DNA of 64,000 nucleotides from Athalassotoga saccharophila (GTDB lineage Bacteria; Thermotogota; Thermotogae; Mesoaciditogales; Mesoaciditogaceae): the NCBI RefSeq assembly GCF_009936215.1, contig NZ_AP019551.1, forward strand, positions 651,501 through 715,500. The letters run 5' to 3'. Both the position numbers and the translations under genes were made by a program. Positions 47,151 through 54,418 of this stretch are shown here, piece after piece. The number at the start of each line of letters is the position of its first letter. Position 1 is the first letter of the stretch. The notes beneath the pieces were generated by a model. That model searched no databases. It was not told the origin of the DNA and saw nothing but the letters and a program-made list of their open reading frames with translations.

Positions 47151-47795
47151 ATGTACGTTATAATAGTCGGATGTGGATATTTCGGGGCATCCTTGGCCCT
47201 AAAACTTGCAGATGAAGGAAATGATGTTGTAGTTATCGATAAAGATAAAACGTCATTTTCCAAACTTGGAATGGCTTTTAACGGACTTACGATCATAGGA
47301 GTTGGCATCGATGAGGATGTTCTCAAGAAGGCTGGAATCGAGAAGGCCGATGCCGTTATCGCGGCAACACGTGACGACAACACGAATATCATGATAGCCG
47401 AAATTGCCAAGAAGATTTACAAAGTGCCGAAAGTGATCGCGAGGGTCTATCTTCAATCGAAAGTTGGAATTTACAAAGATTTTGACATCGATTTTGTCTG
47501 TCCCACGACGATAGGCGTGGAAGAGATGTACAACATGATCTTCTCTGATGGTACAAAATTGCGTGCGAATGTCGGCGATGGCTTTTCGATTTTTGAAGTT
47601 GTTGTGCGTAAGGACAAGAATTTCAAAGTGGAAGAGATTGAGTCAAAATTCGATGTTAGAATTTGTGCTGTAAAAAGAGGTAATTTCGAGATCGCATCTG
47701 AAGATCTCAATTTACAAAAAGATGACGTAGTGGTGATTTTATCCGATCTGGAAGAAGCAAAAAAAGTTTCAAAATACTTCGGTGATGTCGAATGA
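47151..47795 (+). CDS. trkA: TrkA/KtrA-type potassium channel regulator, first subunit
   Basis: A 214-residue cytoplasmic gating subunit. The RCK/KTN nucleotide-binding domain starts VIIVGCGYFGASLALKL with VVVIDKD at the second strand. A C-terminal TrkA_C domain begins near residue 135. Relatives bind NAD(H), ATP or ADP to open the TrkH/KtrB pore. Two single-unit TrkA proteins are encoded in tandem here rather than one fused protein. It overlaps the second by 4 bases. Confidence 0.92.
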   Translation: MYVIIVGCGYFGASLALKLADEGNDVVVIDKDKTSFSKLGMAFNGLTIIGVGIDEDVLKKAGIEKADAVIAATRDDNTNIMIAEIAKKIYKVPKVIARVYLQSKVGIYKDFDIDFVCPTTIGVEEMYNMIFSDGTKLRANVGDGFSIFEVVVRKDKNFKVEEIESKFDVRICAVKRGNFEIASEDLNLQKDDVVVILSDLEEAKKVSKYFGDVE

Positions 47796-48478
47796 AAATA
47801 ATAATTGTCGGCGGCGGTAAAGTAGGGTACTATCTTCTCAAGACACTTTACGGTAAGAAACATAAGATTTCGATAATAGAAAGAGATCCCGTCAAATGTG
47901 CCCGAATTGCCGAAGAAATGGGCAATGTGAATGTCATAAACGGTGACGGTACTGAGGTAAAAGACCTTAGAGAAGCAGGCGCTGAAGACGCGGATGTGAT
48001 TGCGGCCGTCACCGGGAAGGATGAGGTAAATCTCATCTCTTGTCAGATCGCCAAGAAAAATTTCAACATTCCAAAAACGATAGCAAGAGTTAACAACCCA
48101 AAAAATGAAGTCGTGCTCAAATCTTTGGGCGTTGACAATGTCGTTTGCTCGACGGCCTTCATTGCAAATGTAATCGAGCAGGAGGTTGTGCTCGGGGCGA
48201 TAAGATCACTTTTGACATTTTACCATGGCGATCTCAACATTTTGGAAATAAAGGTACCTCATAACTCTCCATCCAATGGAAAAAGGATCATGGATATCAA
48301 ATTGCCGAGAGACAGCATAATCATAACTGTCATAAAAGCAGATAAACCAATAGTTCCGAGAGGTGATACGCAGATAGATGAAGATGATCTTGTCATAATA
48401 ATGTCGAGAAAGGACAAGATTGATGAGATAAAAGCCATTCTTGTCGGGACAGGTGATGAAAATGAGGCAAAGAATTGA
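47792..48478 (+). CDS. trkA: TrkA/KtrA-type potassium channel regulator, second subunit
   Basis: A 228-residue paralogue of the preceding protein: IIIVGGGKVGYYLLKTL nucleotide-binding loop, SIIERDPVKC, VNGD-like INGDGTEV, then a TrkA_C domain (about 145-220). The pair probably forms the hetero-octameric or paired ring under TrkH. Its 3' end overlaps a small membrane-peptide gene by 17 bases. Confidence 0.92.
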   Translation: MKIIIVGGGKVGYYLLKTLYGKKHKISIIERDPVKCARIAEEMGNVNVINGDGTEVKDLREAGAEDADVIAAVTGKDEVNLISCQIAKKNFNIPKTIARVNNPKNEVVLKSLGVDNVVCSTAFIANVIEQEVVLGAIRSLLTFYHGDLNILEIKVPHNSPSNGKRIMDIKLPRDSIIITVIKADKPIVPRGDTQIDEDDLVIIMSRKDKIDEIKAILVGTGDENEAKN

Positions 48479-48578
48479 AAAGATAAAAGATACCTCGATA
48501 GGGATTTTAATAGAGGTAGGATATTCTGTCCTCCTCATTGGAGTTGCTTTTTTGATAGGATATTTAATCGTCCGCTGA
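48462..48578 (+). CDS. 38-residue single-pass membrane peptide between trkA and trkH
   Basis: ATG at 48462 follows AGGTGATGAAA. The frame encodes MRQRIEKIKDTSIGILIEVG followed by YSVLLIGVAFLIGYLIVR and stops at TGA 48576-48578. It has a basic N-terminus then one hydrophobic segment. It fills exactly the space between trkA and trkH, starts inside trkA and ends 1 base before trkH. Small membrane subunits accompany other K+ pumps (KdpF), so an accessory role in the Trk complex is plausible. Confidence 0.65.
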   Translation: MRQRIEKIKDTSIGILIEVGYSVLLIGVAFLIGYLIVR

Positions 48579-48579
48579 T

Positions 48580-50079
48580 ATGAGCAAAAATATCGTCTAT
48601 TCTGATTTAAAAATAATAAATTATTACACCGCAAAAATAGTTGAGACGATGGGATGGGTAATGACCATTCCGCTTGTTACTGCTTTGATCTTTGAAGAAT
48701 GGAATACGGCAATAGATTTTGGAATAGGGATGGCCATCTCTTTTATTTTTGGATTCACGCTTGAGATTTTGTGTCGTGATCATGAAAAAGAGTTGGACTG
48801 GATTCACGGGATGTTCATAGCGGCATACGCGTGGATAATTCTTACGATCATCGATGCAGTTCCCGGATATCTTTCCGGACATTACCTTTCTTTTCTGGAT
48901 TCAGTCTTTGATGTCATGAGTGGATTCACTACAACGGGTCTTGTGCTTATTCAAAGAATGTACGATCTTTCGATAGGAATGAACATGTGGAGGGCACTTC
49001 TTACCTTTGTTGGCGGTCAGGGTATGATCGTTCTTTCTTTGAGTTTTCTCATAGGCATGCGCGGTGGCTATGCAATGTACATAGGGGAAGGAAAAAGCGA
49101 GAAACTCCTTCCGAGTTTTACAAAAACTGCGAGGGCAATATGGGATATAAGCCTTATATACCTTGCCATCGGAACTATCGCATTGTTTATAGCAGGTCTT
49201 TTTATAGGGCTAAAGCCTGTAAACGCACTTTTGAATGGTATATGGATCTTCATGTCGGCATGGAGCACGGGAGGCTTTGCCCCACATTCGCAAAATATTC
49301 TTTATTATCACAGCATGCTTTACATGCTTATAACGATGGTGATCTTCATAATAGGTTCTTTCAATTTCGCACTTCATTATGCCGTAATGAACAAAAACAG
49401 AAAAGAAATATATAAAAATATAGAAACACAGTCTTTTTTCATAACCGTTCTTATAACCTTTACCATAGTTGCTATTGGTCTTGTTAGAAATAACGTCTAT
49501 CCGAATGCGGTCATCCTTTTTACCAAGGGATTTTATCAGTTGATCTCCGCACACACGACAACCGGTTTTATGAACATATATCCATCACAGTTTGGATCAT
49601 GGGGAACACTTGCAATGGTCGGCATAACGATCGCAATGCTCATAGGTGGGAGCACAAGTTCGACTGCTGGGGGGATAAAGGGAATGAGAATCGGCATAAT
49701 CGCAAAATCTTTTGCCTTCGAGACAAAAAAACTTTTCATGTCATCGAAATCGGTCAAGGTGCAAAAATTCCATAATCAGGAAGATATCGATCTCGATAAC
49801 GAGATCGTCAAAAATGCCATGGTCATAACGATGATGTACATTCTTTCATTCATTGTAGGTCTTATAATAACGCTCATTTACAAATATCCGATAGAAAAGG
49901 CCGCATTTGAAGTTGCATCGGCTCTTGGAAATGTCGGACTCTCGACCGGTATTACCTCTCCTTCGATGCCGGACGTGCTGAAGGTACTTTTTATAATCTT
50001 GATGTGGGTTGGCAGGCTTGAATTCATGGCCGTTATAGCCTTTGTTGCCTATCCATTTTTGGGGGCAAAAAGAAGATGA
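48580..50079 (+). CDS. trkH: TrkH/KtrB potassium uptake pore
   Basis: A 499-residue membrane protein of the SKT superfamily with four pore-loop units. Selectivity-filter-like segments are visible as SGFTTTGL (near 112), SAWSTGGFAPHS (near 226), SAHTTTGFMNI (near 320) and GNVGLSTGIT (near 448). With the TrkA subunits it imports K+. It overlaps the following gene by 4 bases. Confidence 0.93.
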   Translation: MSKNIVYSDLKIINYYTAKIVETMGWVMTIPLVTALIFEEWNTAIDFGIGMAISFIFGFTLEILCRDHEKELDWIHGMFIAAYAWIILTIIDAVPGYLSGHYLSFLDSVFDVMSGFTTTGLVLIQRMYDLSIGMNMWRALLTFVGGQGMIVLSLSFLIGMRGGYAMYIGEGKSEKLLPSFTKTARAIWDISLIYLAIGTIALFIAGLFIGLKPVNALLNGIWIFMSAWSTGGFAPHSQNILYYHSMLYMLITMVIFIIGSFNFALHYAVMNKNRKEIYKNIETQSFFITVLITFTIVAIGLVRNNVYPNAVILFTKGFYQLISAHTTTGFMNIYPSQFGSWGTLAMVGITIAMLIGGSTSSTAGGIKGMRIGIIAKSFAFETKKLFMSSKSVKVQKFHNQEDIDLDNEIVKNAMVITMMYILSFIVGLIITLIYKYPIEKAAFEVASALGNVGLSTGITSPSMPDVLKVLFIILMWVGRLEFMAVIAFVAYPFLGAKRR

Positions 50080-50549
50080 AAGATCTCGCCTTTTTTGTAT
50101 TTATGATCTTTTTTGTGTCCGTGATTTTTGCCATGCCGACTATATCCGATATGATAAACAATCCGTCAACGTACGATGGAAAATTTTTGACAGTCCAGGG
50201 TCAGGCCGTCGGAAGTATAATGAGAAGAGGAGATTATGCCTGGGTAAACATGACAGACGGTTCTCAGACTCTCGGCTTTTGGATGCCTTATTCCCTTGCG
50301 ACGCAGATAAAGTACACGGCGAGTTATAATTTCAAAGGCGATCTTTTGACAGTTGAAGGGACCTTCGTTGCCATGTCTTTGAAACATGATGGAGATATGG
50401 AGTTTGACGTTTCAAAAATAGTTAAAATCGTTCCGGGCGGCAGAATTGCCCACAAAATCGATCTCGATAAAGTTATCTTTTTGATCTTTTTATCTTTGAT
50501 AGTCTCGCTTTTGTGGATTTTGAAAAAAAGGATATTCTCCAAGGTGTGA
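50076..50549 (+). CDS. Exported, membrane-anchored OB-fold-like protein
   Basis: The protein has 157 residues: signal peptide (about 1-19), an extracytoplasmic beta-rich domain (about 25-125) with the pattern of nucleic-acid-binding-type OB folds (GKFLTVQGQAVGSIMRRGDY, then LLTVEGTF), and a C-terminal helix (about 131-150) ending in basic residues. Similar small OB proteins occur in Thermotogota near transporters; their role is unknown to me. Overlap with trkH implies co-translation. Confidence 0.6.
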   Translation: MKDLAFFVFMIFFVSVIFAMPTISDMINNPSTYDGKFLTVQGQAVGSIMRRGDYAWVNMTDGSQTLGFWMPYSLATQIKYTASYNFKGDLLTVEGTFVAMSLKHDGDMEFDVSKIVKIVPGGRIAHKIDLDKVIFLIFLSLIVSLLWILKKRIFSKV

Positions 50550-50592
50550 AGAAAAAATTCGCAGTAGATTTTCAGAATTAACGCGTGTTTTT

Positions 50593-50625
50593 AAAAAAGT
50601 GCGAAGAAAATCTTCGCACTTTTTT
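50593..50625 (+). terminator. Terminator of the Trk operon
   Basis: A 15-bp perfect stem, AAAAAAGTGCGAAGA with TCTTCGCACTTTTTT, encloses an AAA loop and ends in a T-run. It lies 44 bases after the OB-like gene. Confidence 0.92.
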
Positions 50626-50680: not shown

Positions 50681-50697
50681 TTGGCACGATTGTTGCT
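50681..50697 (+). promoter_or_regulatory. Sigma-54 promoter
   Basis: TTGGCACG (50681-50688), four bases, then TTGCT (50693-50697) match the -24/-12 consensus TTGGCACGnnnnTTGCW exactly. It lies between the Trk terminator and the SPW-like gene, with GGAGGTG and ATG at 50737 downstream. A sigma-54 activator with intact GAFTGA is encoded 2.4 kb downstream. I found no second match of this quality in the window by eye. Confidence 0.85.
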
Positions 50698-50736
50698 AAT
50701 CAAAATTGGAAAGAAAATTCGATGGAGGTGATTTGT

Positions 50737-51060
50737 ATGACATGGAGAGGCTGGATAACTTTGATAATAGGAGGAATATGGCTTATAATAGCGTCATTTA
50801 TTCCTCTCGGTGGAATGGGAAATCTCGTCAACGATCTGCTCGTTGGAATAATAGTGGCGATATTTGGATTTTTGATGATTCCAGAGCATGCGGCATGGCA
50901 GGGATGGATCATAGGTTTGATAGGCGGTGTATGGATGATTATAGCGGCCTTCATCCCCGGGATTACCCACTCCTACGTTGCCAATCTTGTCAATAATTTA
51001 ATAGTTGGTATCATAGTGCTTATCGTCTCTTTGTTCGAAAGGCCAAAGAAAACGGCATGA
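50737..51060 (+). CDS. SPW-repeat-like four-helix membrane protein
   Basis: A 107-residue hydrophobic protein made of two similar halves: WRGWITLIIGGIWLIIASFIP and WQGWIIGLIGGVWMIIAAFIP, each followed by a second helix containing NNLIVGIIV or NDLLVGIIV. This internal duplication resembles the SPW repeat family of small membrane proteins with unknown function. ATG at 50737 follows GGAGGTG. It is a single gene between a sigma-54 promoter and a terminator, so it is the direct target of that promoter. Confidence 0.75.
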   Translation: MTWRGWITLIIGGIWLIIASFIPLGGMGNLVNDLLVGIIVAIFGFLMIPEHAAWQGWIIGLIGGVWMIIAAFIPGITHSYVANLVNNLIVGIIVLIVSLFERPKKTA

Positions 51061-51079
51061 ATTCGATCTGAGTTTTGAA

Positions 51080-51103
51080 GAAGACTGGCATATGCCAGTC
51101 TTC
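51080..51103 (+). terminator. Perfect 24-bp palindrome terminator
   Basis: GAAGACTGGCATATGCCAGTCTTC is followed by TTTTAT, 20 bases after the SPW-like gene stop and 35 bases before the kinase gene. Confidence 0.8.
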
Positions 51104-51137
51104 TTTTATGTTAGGATCGATATGAGGGGATGAGAAT

Positions 51138-53087
51138 GTGCCTGTCGAATTTTACTTCAATTTTGCAAGTTTCATCGCCAATTTGATCTTGTTCTTTGTG
51201 GCTTTGAGGTATTACTTTTACGCCAAGAAAACTCTCAATCCTTACCTTATTTTAATGGTTACAACATCTTTTCTGTGGAATGTGGCGCTTTTTTTCGATA
51301 TGATCGATCTAACTACTTCAACGGCACTTCTGTCCGTTTTCTTTATTCTTTTTGGGATCATTCCAGTTCTTATGATATCTTACGCATTTAGATTTAAAGT
51401 ACTTTATTTTTTTGAATTCGGAATACTTTTGGTTGGTTCAATTTTAACCTACTTTTTTCTATTTTCGAAGACAGATCTCGTCTCTTTAGGAATACTCTCA
51501 ACGTTAAACGTTGTCTTTTCGATATTTTTCATGACCAAAAAGTATACAGACATAATTTCTTTTTTTGCAAGATCTAAGGTACAAACTTACATCGTTTTTT
51601 ACGGTCTTTTCGAAGTGCTTGAAGTTATAATTTTTTGGCTATGGATTTATCATAACGTTATGTGGCCATACATTTCGGTGATGAATTCCATTCTAATTCC
51701 GATCTATCTTTACACGATAGTTGATCTTGTCTACGAGATAAGAATGGTCCAGATTTCGAAGGCTTTTTTGAAGAATATTCTTTACGGATCGATGATCTCT
51801 CTTTTGATATCTTTTATTTTGATAATAAGTTATTACACCAATTTTTATTTCTCAAAAAGTTCGAGTTTGATCCAATTCTTTTCGATATCCTTTATCGTGA
51901 TATTTTTGTCCTTTTTGGTCTTCGGAGATTACCTTCAAAAGATAGACGAGTTCTTTGAGAGAATTTTACGCACAGGACGAGGATATAAAAGAGAGAAGAC
52001 CATAAATTTTGTCAGAAAAAGTCTCGAAATAGATTCTCTCGAAGATCTTGAACCTCTTATAGTCGATTACGCGTCGAGTGTTTTGAACACAGAAGACATA
52101 GAGTTATTCTTCAAAGACGATGATGGCAATTACAGATCCTTAAAAAGGACTCTAAGTCAAAAAGAAATTCCGTGTGGCGATATATTGAAGGTCGTGGACC
52201 TTTACAGCCTTCCATCTGCGGGGGTATTTTCTGAAAAAGAGTTGCTTGTATGGATGAAGAATGCCGGTAAGGTTGAGGGGTTCATGGTCTTGGGTCATAA
52301 AAAAAGCGGAAGGTACTCTTCAGAAGATCTTGAGTGGATCGATACGCTGTCAAATCACCTAACCTTCTTTCTATCGAGATACAGAAGCATTCAAAGGGTT
52401 ATGAAGATCGAAAAGCAGATGATCTTTCAAGAAAGAATGGCAGCCCTTGGTAAACTCTCTTCTGGCGTTACTCATGAAATAAGGAATCCTCTTAACATAA
52501 TTTCCACATCTATCCAGATGTTAAAAAAAGGCACAGATCCACATCAAAATGAGAAATTGTGGAAATACATAGATGAGGAACTTTCAAGAATCAATTCGAT
52601 TCTCGAAAATTTCCTCTATTTTGCCCGTCAAAAACCCCCCGTCGTGGAAGAAGGCGATCCCGTCGAGATAGTCAAAAAGATCGCCTTACTTTTAAGTGAA
52701 AGCGCTTCGAAAAGATCTATCGAGATAAGAACCTCTTTTCCTTCTCCCTTCCTCGCGAAATTTGACAAGTCAATGCTTATGGAGATACTCCTTAACATAG
52801 GTACAAACGCGCTCGATGCCGTTGATGAGGGAAAGTGGATATCTTTTGAAGTTGAAAAGTTTGAAAATCATTTTAGAATTTCTGTTTCTAACAATGGCAA
52901 AGTTATTCCACAGTCCGATCTTCAGCGTATCTTTGAACCATTTTACACCACAAAGGAAAATGGAACGGGTCTTGGACTTTCAATAGTTTACAACTATGTA
53001 AATGCCATGGGTGGCAAAATCGACGTTAAGAGCGATGAAGACGAAACGAGATTTTCTATAACTCTTCCGGTGGAGGTGAAGGCATGA
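51138..53087 (+). CDS. Membrane-bound sensor histidine kinase
   Basis: The protein has 649 residues. Residues about 1-260 hold seven or eight membrane helices, which probably form the sensor. Residues 285-420 look like a GAF-type domain. HisKA follows with the phosphorylated His in SSGVTHEIRNPLNIIS (near 443). HATPase motifs include NIGTNALDAV, a GNGKV-like turn, EPFYTTKENGTGLGLSIV and a final GG segment. The layout recalls the PrsK-type kinases of sigma-54 systems. GTG start. It overlaps the response regulator by 4 bases and should phosphorylate it. Confidence 0.92.
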   Translation: MPVEFYFNFASFIANLILFFVALRYYFYAKKTLNPYLILMVTTSFLWNVALFFDMIDLTTSTALLSVFFILFGIIPVLMISYAFRFKVLYFFEFGILLVGSILTYFFLFSKTDLVSLGILSTLNVVFSIFFMTKKYTDIISFFARSKVQTYIVFYGLFEVLEVIIFWLWIYHNVMWPYISVMNSILIPIYLYTIVDLVYEIRMVQISKAFLKNILYGSMISLLISFILIISYYTNFYFSKSSSLIQFFSISFIVIFLSFLVFGDYLQKIDEFFERILRTGRGYKREKTINFVRKSLEIDSLEDLEPLIVDYASSVLNTEDIELFFKDDDGNYRSLKRTLSQKEIPCGDILKVVDLYSLPSAGVFSEKELLVWMKNAGKVEGFMVLGHKKSGRYSSEDLEWIDTLSNHLTFFLSRYRSIQRVMKIEKQMIFQERMAALGKLSSGVTHEIRNPLNIISTSIQMLKKGTDPHQNEKLWKYIDEELSRINSILENFLYFARQKPPVVEEGDPVEIVKKIALLLSESASKRSIEIRTSFPSPFLAKFDKSMLMEILLNIGTNALDAVDEGKWISFEVEKFENHFRISVSNNGKVIPQSDLQRIFEPFYTTKENGTGLGLSIVYNYVNAMGGKIDVKSDEDETRFSITLPVEVKA

Positions 53088-54418
53088 ACACAGTGCTTTT
53101 CGTCGACGATGAAGGTTACATGTTAGAACTCATGAAGATGAACTTTTCAAAGAAATACAATGTTTTGACGGCACAAAGTGGTCTTGAGGCCCTCGATGTA
53201 ATTCGCAAAAATCGTGTAGATCTTGTTGTGACGGATATAAAGATGCCAAAAATGGATGGAATGGAACTTTTAAAAATTGTAAGAGATCAGTTCGATCTGC
53301 CCGTCATAATAATCACGGCCTTCGGAACGATAGAAAATGCCGTTGAGGCCATCAAAAAGGGAGCCTACGATTACATAACAAAGCCCATAAACTTGGAAGA
53401 TCTTGAGACAAAGATAGACAGAAGTATAGAATACGTCAACATAAAAAGAGAAAATTCGATATTGAGAGAGAGAATAAAGAGATCTTCGAATATCATCACA
53501 AAAAGCGAAAAAATTCTCAAAATCCTCGATAAAATTCCACAGTACGCGAATCTCGATCTTCCAATTCTCATTCTCGGAGAGAGCGGGACTGGGAAGGAAC
53601 TTATTGCGCGCGCAATTCATGATCAAAGTTCAAGGTGTACCGGCCCCTTCATAGCGGTTAACATGTCGGCAGTTCCGGCAGAACTTTTCGAAAGCGAATT
53701 TTTCGGATACGAACAGGGAGCCTTTACGGGAGCAAATTCAAGAAAGATCGGAAAATTTGAGGCGGCCAACGGTGGAACACTTTTTCTCGATGAAATAGGG
53801 GATATGCCACTCGAAGATCAGGCAAAGTTGCTCAGGGTACTTCAGGACTTCAAAATAACAAGGCTTGGAAGCGTTGAGGAAAGGAAGGTTGATTTTAGGC
53901 TTATAAGTGCCACGAATAAACCACTCGAGAAGATGATAGAAGAAAAAAAGTTCAGAGAAGATCTTTATTACAGGATAAATGTCATAAGAATAGAGATTCC
54001 ACCGTTGAGAGAAAGACCAGAAGACATCGAACTTCTTTCAAATTATTACGTGAACAAATACGCAGAACAGATGAAAAAAAGTGTCGGGATTTCGCCAAAA
54101 GCGATGGAGATGCTGAAGTCTTACAAATGGCCCGGAAATGTTCGGGAATTACAAAATGTGATCCTGAGGGCTGTCTTGAATGCAGAAGGCGAGATAACGG
54201 CAAAAGATCTGCCATTAGAAGTCTCTGGAGACGAGATCACCGATTACAAGACCTTTCTACTTAGAAAACGCATCGAGAGGGATAAACTTTACCGCCAACT
54301 CGAGAATCAATTCGTTTCTTCACTGCTTTTTAAGGCTGGAGGAAATGTTTCAAAGGCTGCGGAAATGGCTAAGATGGACAGGCGCCTTCTTCAAAATATG
54401 ATAAAACATCTCAGTTGA
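53084..54418 (+). CDS. NtrC-family sigma-54 activator (response regulator)
   Basis: The protein has 444 residues. The receiver domain (1-120) has phospho-acceptor Asp in [12 protein letters not shown]. The AAA+ domain (about 140-370) has Walker A GESGTGKE, the sigma-54 contact loop GAFTGA (in [13 protein letters not shown]) and DEIGDMP. The short Fis-type helix-turn-helix ([25 protein letters not shown]) sits at the end. It is paired with the kinase and probably activates the promoter at 50681. Confidence 0.94.

Follow-up and report, generated by a model that had tools for sequence, protein, structure and literature searches.

A probable sigma-54 two-component circuit dedicated to an SPW-repeat membrane protein in Athalassotoga saccharophila

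Comparative analysis of a 64,000-nucleotide stretch of DNA from Athalassotoga saccharophila (hereafter called the window) indicates that it probably encodes a dedicated two-component circuit acting through sigma-54 and serving essentially a single target, the gene for a small SPW-repeat membrane protein. The wiring proposed in the initial annotation, leading from a sensor kinase via an NtrC-type activator and a sigma-54 promoter to the SPW gene, appears strongly supported by comparative genomics, because the promoter and two upstream palindromes are conserved among relatives, co-occur with an orthologue of the activator, and are all absent in one family member (G008). This kind of circuit is known in principle, and the new aspects are the effector family (SPW) and an undescribed sensor domain of the kinase. 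The relevant features of the window are as follows.

50545..50563, plus strand: candidate distal enhancer (UAS) TGTGAAGAAAAAATTCGCA, one mismatch to TGCGAA-N7-TTCGCA, centre at -129 from the -24 GG
50600..50618, plus strand: candidate proximal enhancer (UAS) TGCGAAGAAAATCTTCGCA, perfect palindrome, centre at -74 from the -24 GG
50681..50697, plus strand: sigma-54 (-24/-12) promoter TTGGCACGATTGTTGCT, -24 GG at 50683-50684 and -12 GC at 50695-50696, conserved in relatives
50737..51060, plus strand: SPW-repeat membrane protein of 107 aa (PF03779), two SPW repeats, four main transmembrane helices
51076..51106, plus strand: intrinsic terminator between the SPW and kinase genes, hairpin with T-rich tail
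51138..53087, plus strand: sensor histidine kinase of 649 aa, about eight transmembrane helices, GAF-like region, HisKA (His446), HATPase_c
53084..54418, plus strand: NtrC-type response regulator of 444 aa, receiver (Asp51), AAA+ domain, Fis-type HTH

The exact consensus -24/-12 promoter noted in the initial annotation is indeed present at 50681-50697, with a predicted transcription start at about 50707-50708, and exact copies of TTGGCACNNNNNTTGCW occur three times in the 2.04-Mb genome, compared to about 0.4 expected from the base composition. The SPW gene starts with the ATG at 50737, preceded by a ribosome-binding site (GGAGGTG at 50724-50730), and its product scores above the curated Pfam cut-off of PF03779 (40.6 vs. 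31.5 bits, E 3.7e-10). The stem of the hairpin at 51076-51106 covaries in two relatives (G003 and G002), where different letters still pair and the T-run is kept, which identifies it as a real RNA terminator and the SPW gene therefore as a single-gene unit. The earlier statement that an SPW-like gene stands alone before the next terminator thus holds, and in most relatives the gene likewise constitutes a transcription unit by itself.

Two 19-bp palindromes of the type TGCGAA-N7-TTCGCA, located shortly before the promoter, are recognized as candidate enhancers; the pair is an addition to the initial annotation, which had not reported it. The perfect form is found only once in the A. saccharophila genome, as the proximal copy (0.1 expected). 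In an alignment of the DNA upstream of SPW from two families (11 genomes, some of them with SPW located far from the kinase gene), conservation is confined to blocks formed by the two palindromes, the promoter, and the ribosome-binding site, while the remainder is scrambled. Allowing for up to two mismatches, the proximal palindrome is present in all 12 SPW promoter regions (in at most 2% of trials with shuffled sequence), and the distance between the palindromes amounts to 55-57 bp in all nine pairs found, being 55 bp in A. saccharophila. The centre of the proximal copy is placed at -72 to -74, -84 to -85, or -96 to -97 relative to the -24 GG, and this natural variation of enhancer positions among relatives offers material for studies on activator geometry in thermophiles. 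Helical phasing of the registers near -73, -85, and -97 was considered, but is not claimed, as the steps of about 12 bp do not represent clean turns. In the relative G006, both palindromes are present and the promoter (ACGGCATGAGTTTTGCT) is weaker, and the kinase-linked SPW gene of G002 is preceded by one palindrome alone, which carries two mismatches. Palindromes with the same pair spacing are also found before the second SPW copy of a relative; a second copy with the palindrome-promoter module is located at G003:C13:1-282. Extra palindromes less than 250 bp from the contig ends of G004:C50 and G002:C39 probably represent the upstream parts of further second SPW copies, and duplications of the module may have broken these assemblies.

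The description of the other two genes as coding for a multi-helix kinase and an NtrC-type activator with a GAFTGA motif is confirmed by their domains and key residues. The regulator contains a complete Walker A motif and the GAFTGA sequence at residues 212-217, and an 11-residue recognition stretch in its Fis-type HTH is invariant across nine orthologues. No Pfam family matches the sensor domain of the kinase above the cut-off (GAF_2 is matched weakly, E 0.015), and the structural model of the kinase, which is of low confidence (pLDDT 69, pTM 0.37), was used for helix counting only. Calling the circuit "self-contained," as was done initially, is appropriate for its regulon, but not for its layout, since rpoN is located elsewhere, kinase and activator form a transcription unit of their own, and the linkage to SPW is absent in more distant relatives.

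A. saccharophila NAS-01 is an anaerobic, thermoacidophilic hot-spring bacterium affiliated with the Mesoaciditogales, the deepest-branching order of the Thermotogota, and does not belong to the genus Thermotoga. Its published genome consists of contigs of 1,957,762, 43,703, and 43,534 bp (PMC7163026). The initial annotation had made its proposal dependent on the presence of rpoN, and a profile search detected a full rpoN gene 18 kb downstream of the window (Sigma54_DBD, E 9.2e-48 at C1:733099-733563). It had also stated that sigma-54 is not a general feature of the well-studied Thermotoga species, which is correct for T. maritima, a species not among the control genomes with a match, yet the sigma-54 DNA-binding domain is matched in 69 of 103 Thermotogota genomes (65 of them above the curated cut-off). 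Sigma-54 is therefore patchy in this phylum, and the locus appears to document a complete enhancer-promoter architecture in its deepest branch.

Full-length orthologues of the kinase show 61-90% identity within the genus and 45-47% in most of the family, with none recorded outside of it, and those of the regulator are distributed in the same way; a profile of the regulator C-terminus gives strong matches in only nine of 103 genomes, namely those containing a regulator orthologue. In all nine of these, the palindromes and a -24/-12 promoter precede SPW, the promoter being weakest in G006. The SPW gene adjoins those for kinase and regulator only in A. saccharophila (G000), G002, and G003, is separated from the kinase gene by two other genes in G001, and shows no such linkage in the other genera. 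In G008, the tenth family member, the kinase, the regulator, the exact palindrome, and the sigma-54 promoter are all missing, and none of 29 further SPW loci (paralogues or from other lineages) shows a palindrome with up to one mismatch in the flanking DNA, covered over up to 1.5 kb on either side. The association of module and regulator (9/9 vs. two of the remaining genomes) corresponds to a Fisher p value of about 3e-6, which should be read with the reservation that related genomes do not represent independent cases and the negative cell count is approximate. A search for the combination of palindrome and promoter in 85,000 genomes returned five matches, from two relatives of the same genus, from G013 and G019 of family f5, and from one member of the Lachnospiraceae; the latter lies inside a flagellar gene cluster and was taken as a chance match.

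As judged from these data, the membrane kinase, equipped with an eight-helix sensor and a GAF-like region, would respond to some cue, possibly the membrane or envelope state proposed in the initial annotation, by phosphorylating Asp51 of the regulator, whose dimers may then bind to the two enhancers 55 bp apart and assemble the AAA+ ring. Within its own family, the window-type regulator is very likely the protein binding the palindromes. Its GAFTGA loop would open the E-sigma54 bound at 50681-50697, and transcription from near 50708 would read the SPW gene alone and end at 51076-51106, with kinase and regulator being made from a transcript of their own. The SPW four-helix protein should be the output of the circuit, most likely acting as an effector of envelope or inner-membrane stress, since genes under sigma-54 control tend to be related to the cell exterior (PMC3162934) and the nearest analogues are envelope circuits.

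The SPW protein itself is predicted by AlphaFold2 to form a four-helix bundle (mean pLDDT 87). A structure search with this model returned only generic four-helix bundles, the best one (VIA-align Z 9.6) being a designed protein, and Foldseek recorded nothing below E 0.3; because of the generic nature of these matches, no function is read from the fold. A literature search encountered family PF03779 in a single modelling study, with no known function given (PMC8078820), and retrieved no paper naming the "SPW repeat" and no regulator reported for any SPW gene. Members of the family are present in both Bacteria and Archaea, with neither a function nor a regulator found for them in the literature searched, and the circuit would therefore provide the first experimental handle on SPW proteins: a conserved switch that is private to one target offers a direct route to the inducing signal and hence to the function of SPW. 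A protective role of the protein is plausible as a tentative assignment. A more far-reaching interpretation, which we regard as rather doubtful, would place SPW in a novel class of small stress effectors (or kinase tuners) of the inner membrane, under the control of a private one-gene sigma-54 regulon in the Mesoaciditogales, with family f5 having kept the module and swapped its activator for an unrelated one.

One alternative concerns the role of SPW, which may serve as a feedback or sensing partner by dampening or tuning the membrane-located kinase, making the circuit autoregulatory and SPW no stress effector. The restriction of the apparent target set to one small membrane protein would fit this arrangement, as would the membrane-embedded kinase and the neighbouring positions of both genes in the genus. 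However, many Thermotogota contain SPW without the kinase or the regulator, which argues for a role independent of the window kinase, and the linkage is lost outside of the genus, so that we consider a tuning function unlikely. There is also a small chance that metal, metalloid, or oxyanion stress, and not general envelope stress, is what the circuit responds to. This is suggested by the congener G001, where the interval from SPW to the kinase gene (contig C54) is occupied by inserted genes for an SBF/ACR3-type transporter and a pyridine-nucleotide disulphide oxidoreductase and a ChrB_C gene is oriented divergently from SPW, and by ArsR-like and ACR3-like genes, as read from their sequences, near the SPW genes of G008 and G057. 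Yet the latter two SPW genes lack the palindrome-promoter module, no metal-type genes adjoin SPW in G004-G007 and G009, and the neighbours of the window locus are involved in K+ transport, an amidohydrolase, and flagella instead.

Another NtrC-type regulator, encoded at C1:639649 together with a PAS kinase and present in the family of A. saccharophila as well as in f5, might be the true activator of SPW, with palindromes and promoter being real. The occasion for this consideration are the f5 genomes G013 and G019, where SPW is preceded by a single palindrome and a promoter, both of them perfect, but where neither the window-type regulator nor its DNA-binding domain was found. Both are metagenome-assembled genomes (MAGs) of 90 and 71% completeness, and the chance of missing the regulator in both amounts to about 3% from these figures. 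In f5, the site is either read by another regulator, or the window-type gene falls into assembly gaps. The nearest NtrC-type regulators in f5 are relatives of the C1:639649 protein, and because f5 keeps the module without a window-type regulator, this alternative retains a slim probability. It is opposed by the observations that G008 retains a regulator of the C1:639649 type, yet lacks the exact palindrome and promoter, that the window-type regulator tracks the module in nine of nine cases within the family and adjoins SPW in G000, G002, and G003, and that the recognition helices of the two regulators differ (one of the two reads STLHNKLNQW). Two other candidates for an f5 counterpart were rejected, the kinase-regulator pair of G019:C18 for its HAMP-type kinase and different HTH, and the activator of G013:C98 for containing GAFTDA instead of GAFTGA; the latter activator-like protein is probably unable to contact sigma-54. 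The proximal palindrome, which has A/T flanks and an RNA fold of -18.8 kcal/mol, could double as terminator of the upstream gene, but the idea that the palindromes are mere terminator hairpins and the promoter match is fortuitous is extremely improbable and largely refuted by the conservation pattern, since their letters, copy number, and spacing are conserved beyond pairing alone, the T-run is missing after them in several relatives, and the true terminator after SPW covaries, unlike the palindromes.

The proposed circuit resembles the ZraS-ZraR/ZraP system of Enterobacteria, an envelope-stress-linked sigma-54 circuit consisting of a membrane kinase, an NtrC-type regulator, and a small adjacent envelope protein (PMC4987338), in that kinase and regulator control one small envelope protein encoded beside them. 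ZraR, however, additionally activates zraSR through a divergently oriented sigma-54 promoter, whereas only SPW is preceded by one at the Athalassotoga locus, and ZraP is a periplasmic zinc-binding chaperone rather than an integral membrane protein like SPW. A similar comparative signature, in which an activator motif and a -24/-12 motif are matched to a kinase-regulator pair, is known from the PEP-CTERM targets of Proteobacteria, which are mostly organized as single-gene operons and whose motifs match the distribution of the transmembrane kinase PrsK and the NtrC-like PrsR (PMC1569441); the RpoN dependence of this system has been shown (PMC9850573). PrsKR acts on secreted PEP-CTERM proteins, of which a genome often encodes many, as opposed to one or two SPW genes in the Athalassotoga-type circuit, and no PEP-CTERM tail is recognized on the SPW protein by sequence reading. 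The equivalog cut-offs of ZraS and ZraR are widely missed (149.5/479 bits for the kinase, 341.9/760 for the regulator), and the scores also stay below those of PrsK and PrsR (TIGR02916/TIGR02915; 78.9/300 and 401.5/502.6 bits). Because all four family cut-offs are missed and the target differs, the circuit belongs to neither system. Small membrane proteins are also governed by sigma-54 in the PspF/phage-shock circuits, but PspF contains no receiver domain and is not paired with a kinase; no PspA-like gene was seen at the SPW locus.

The search for further -24/-12 sites recommended in the initial annotation yielded 12 relaxed perfect sites in the A. saccharophila genome, compared to two for a control pattern. 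Perfect intergenic sites precede SPW, two genes for secreted proteins (872-874 kb), another one for a secreted protein (1873 kb), and a fatty-acid synthesis cluster (1650 kb). The exact SPW palindrome is found at none of the other intergenic sites, and the remaining sigma-54 regulon looks separate from the SPW circuit, with the reservation that the regulon was searched by sequence patterns and weak targets may be missed. The perfect site TGGCACGAATGTTGCT at C1:1649840 is located 45 bp before fabF, followed by genes which, named by sequence reading, occur in the order fabF - DegV-like - fabZ - fabH - fabK-like, and suggests that fatty-acid synthesis may be under sigma-54 control in A. saccharophila. 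Identical perfect promoters at C1:872201 and 873458 precede the genes for the two secreted proteins, one of them weakly CBM39-like, with a WxLIP-like protein encoded adjacently, and three palindromes of the type TGGAAAG-NN-CTTTCCA upstream of the promoter at C1:873458 possibly represent a second enhancer type. The site at C1:1873142, on the minus strand, precedes the gene for a secreted protein near an activator-like gene pair at 1873.8-1875.5 kb. Within the window, positions 47151-50549 contain the genes of a TrkH K+ channel and two regulators of the TrkA type, which lead into a 157-aa gene without known family just upstream of the candidate enhancers.
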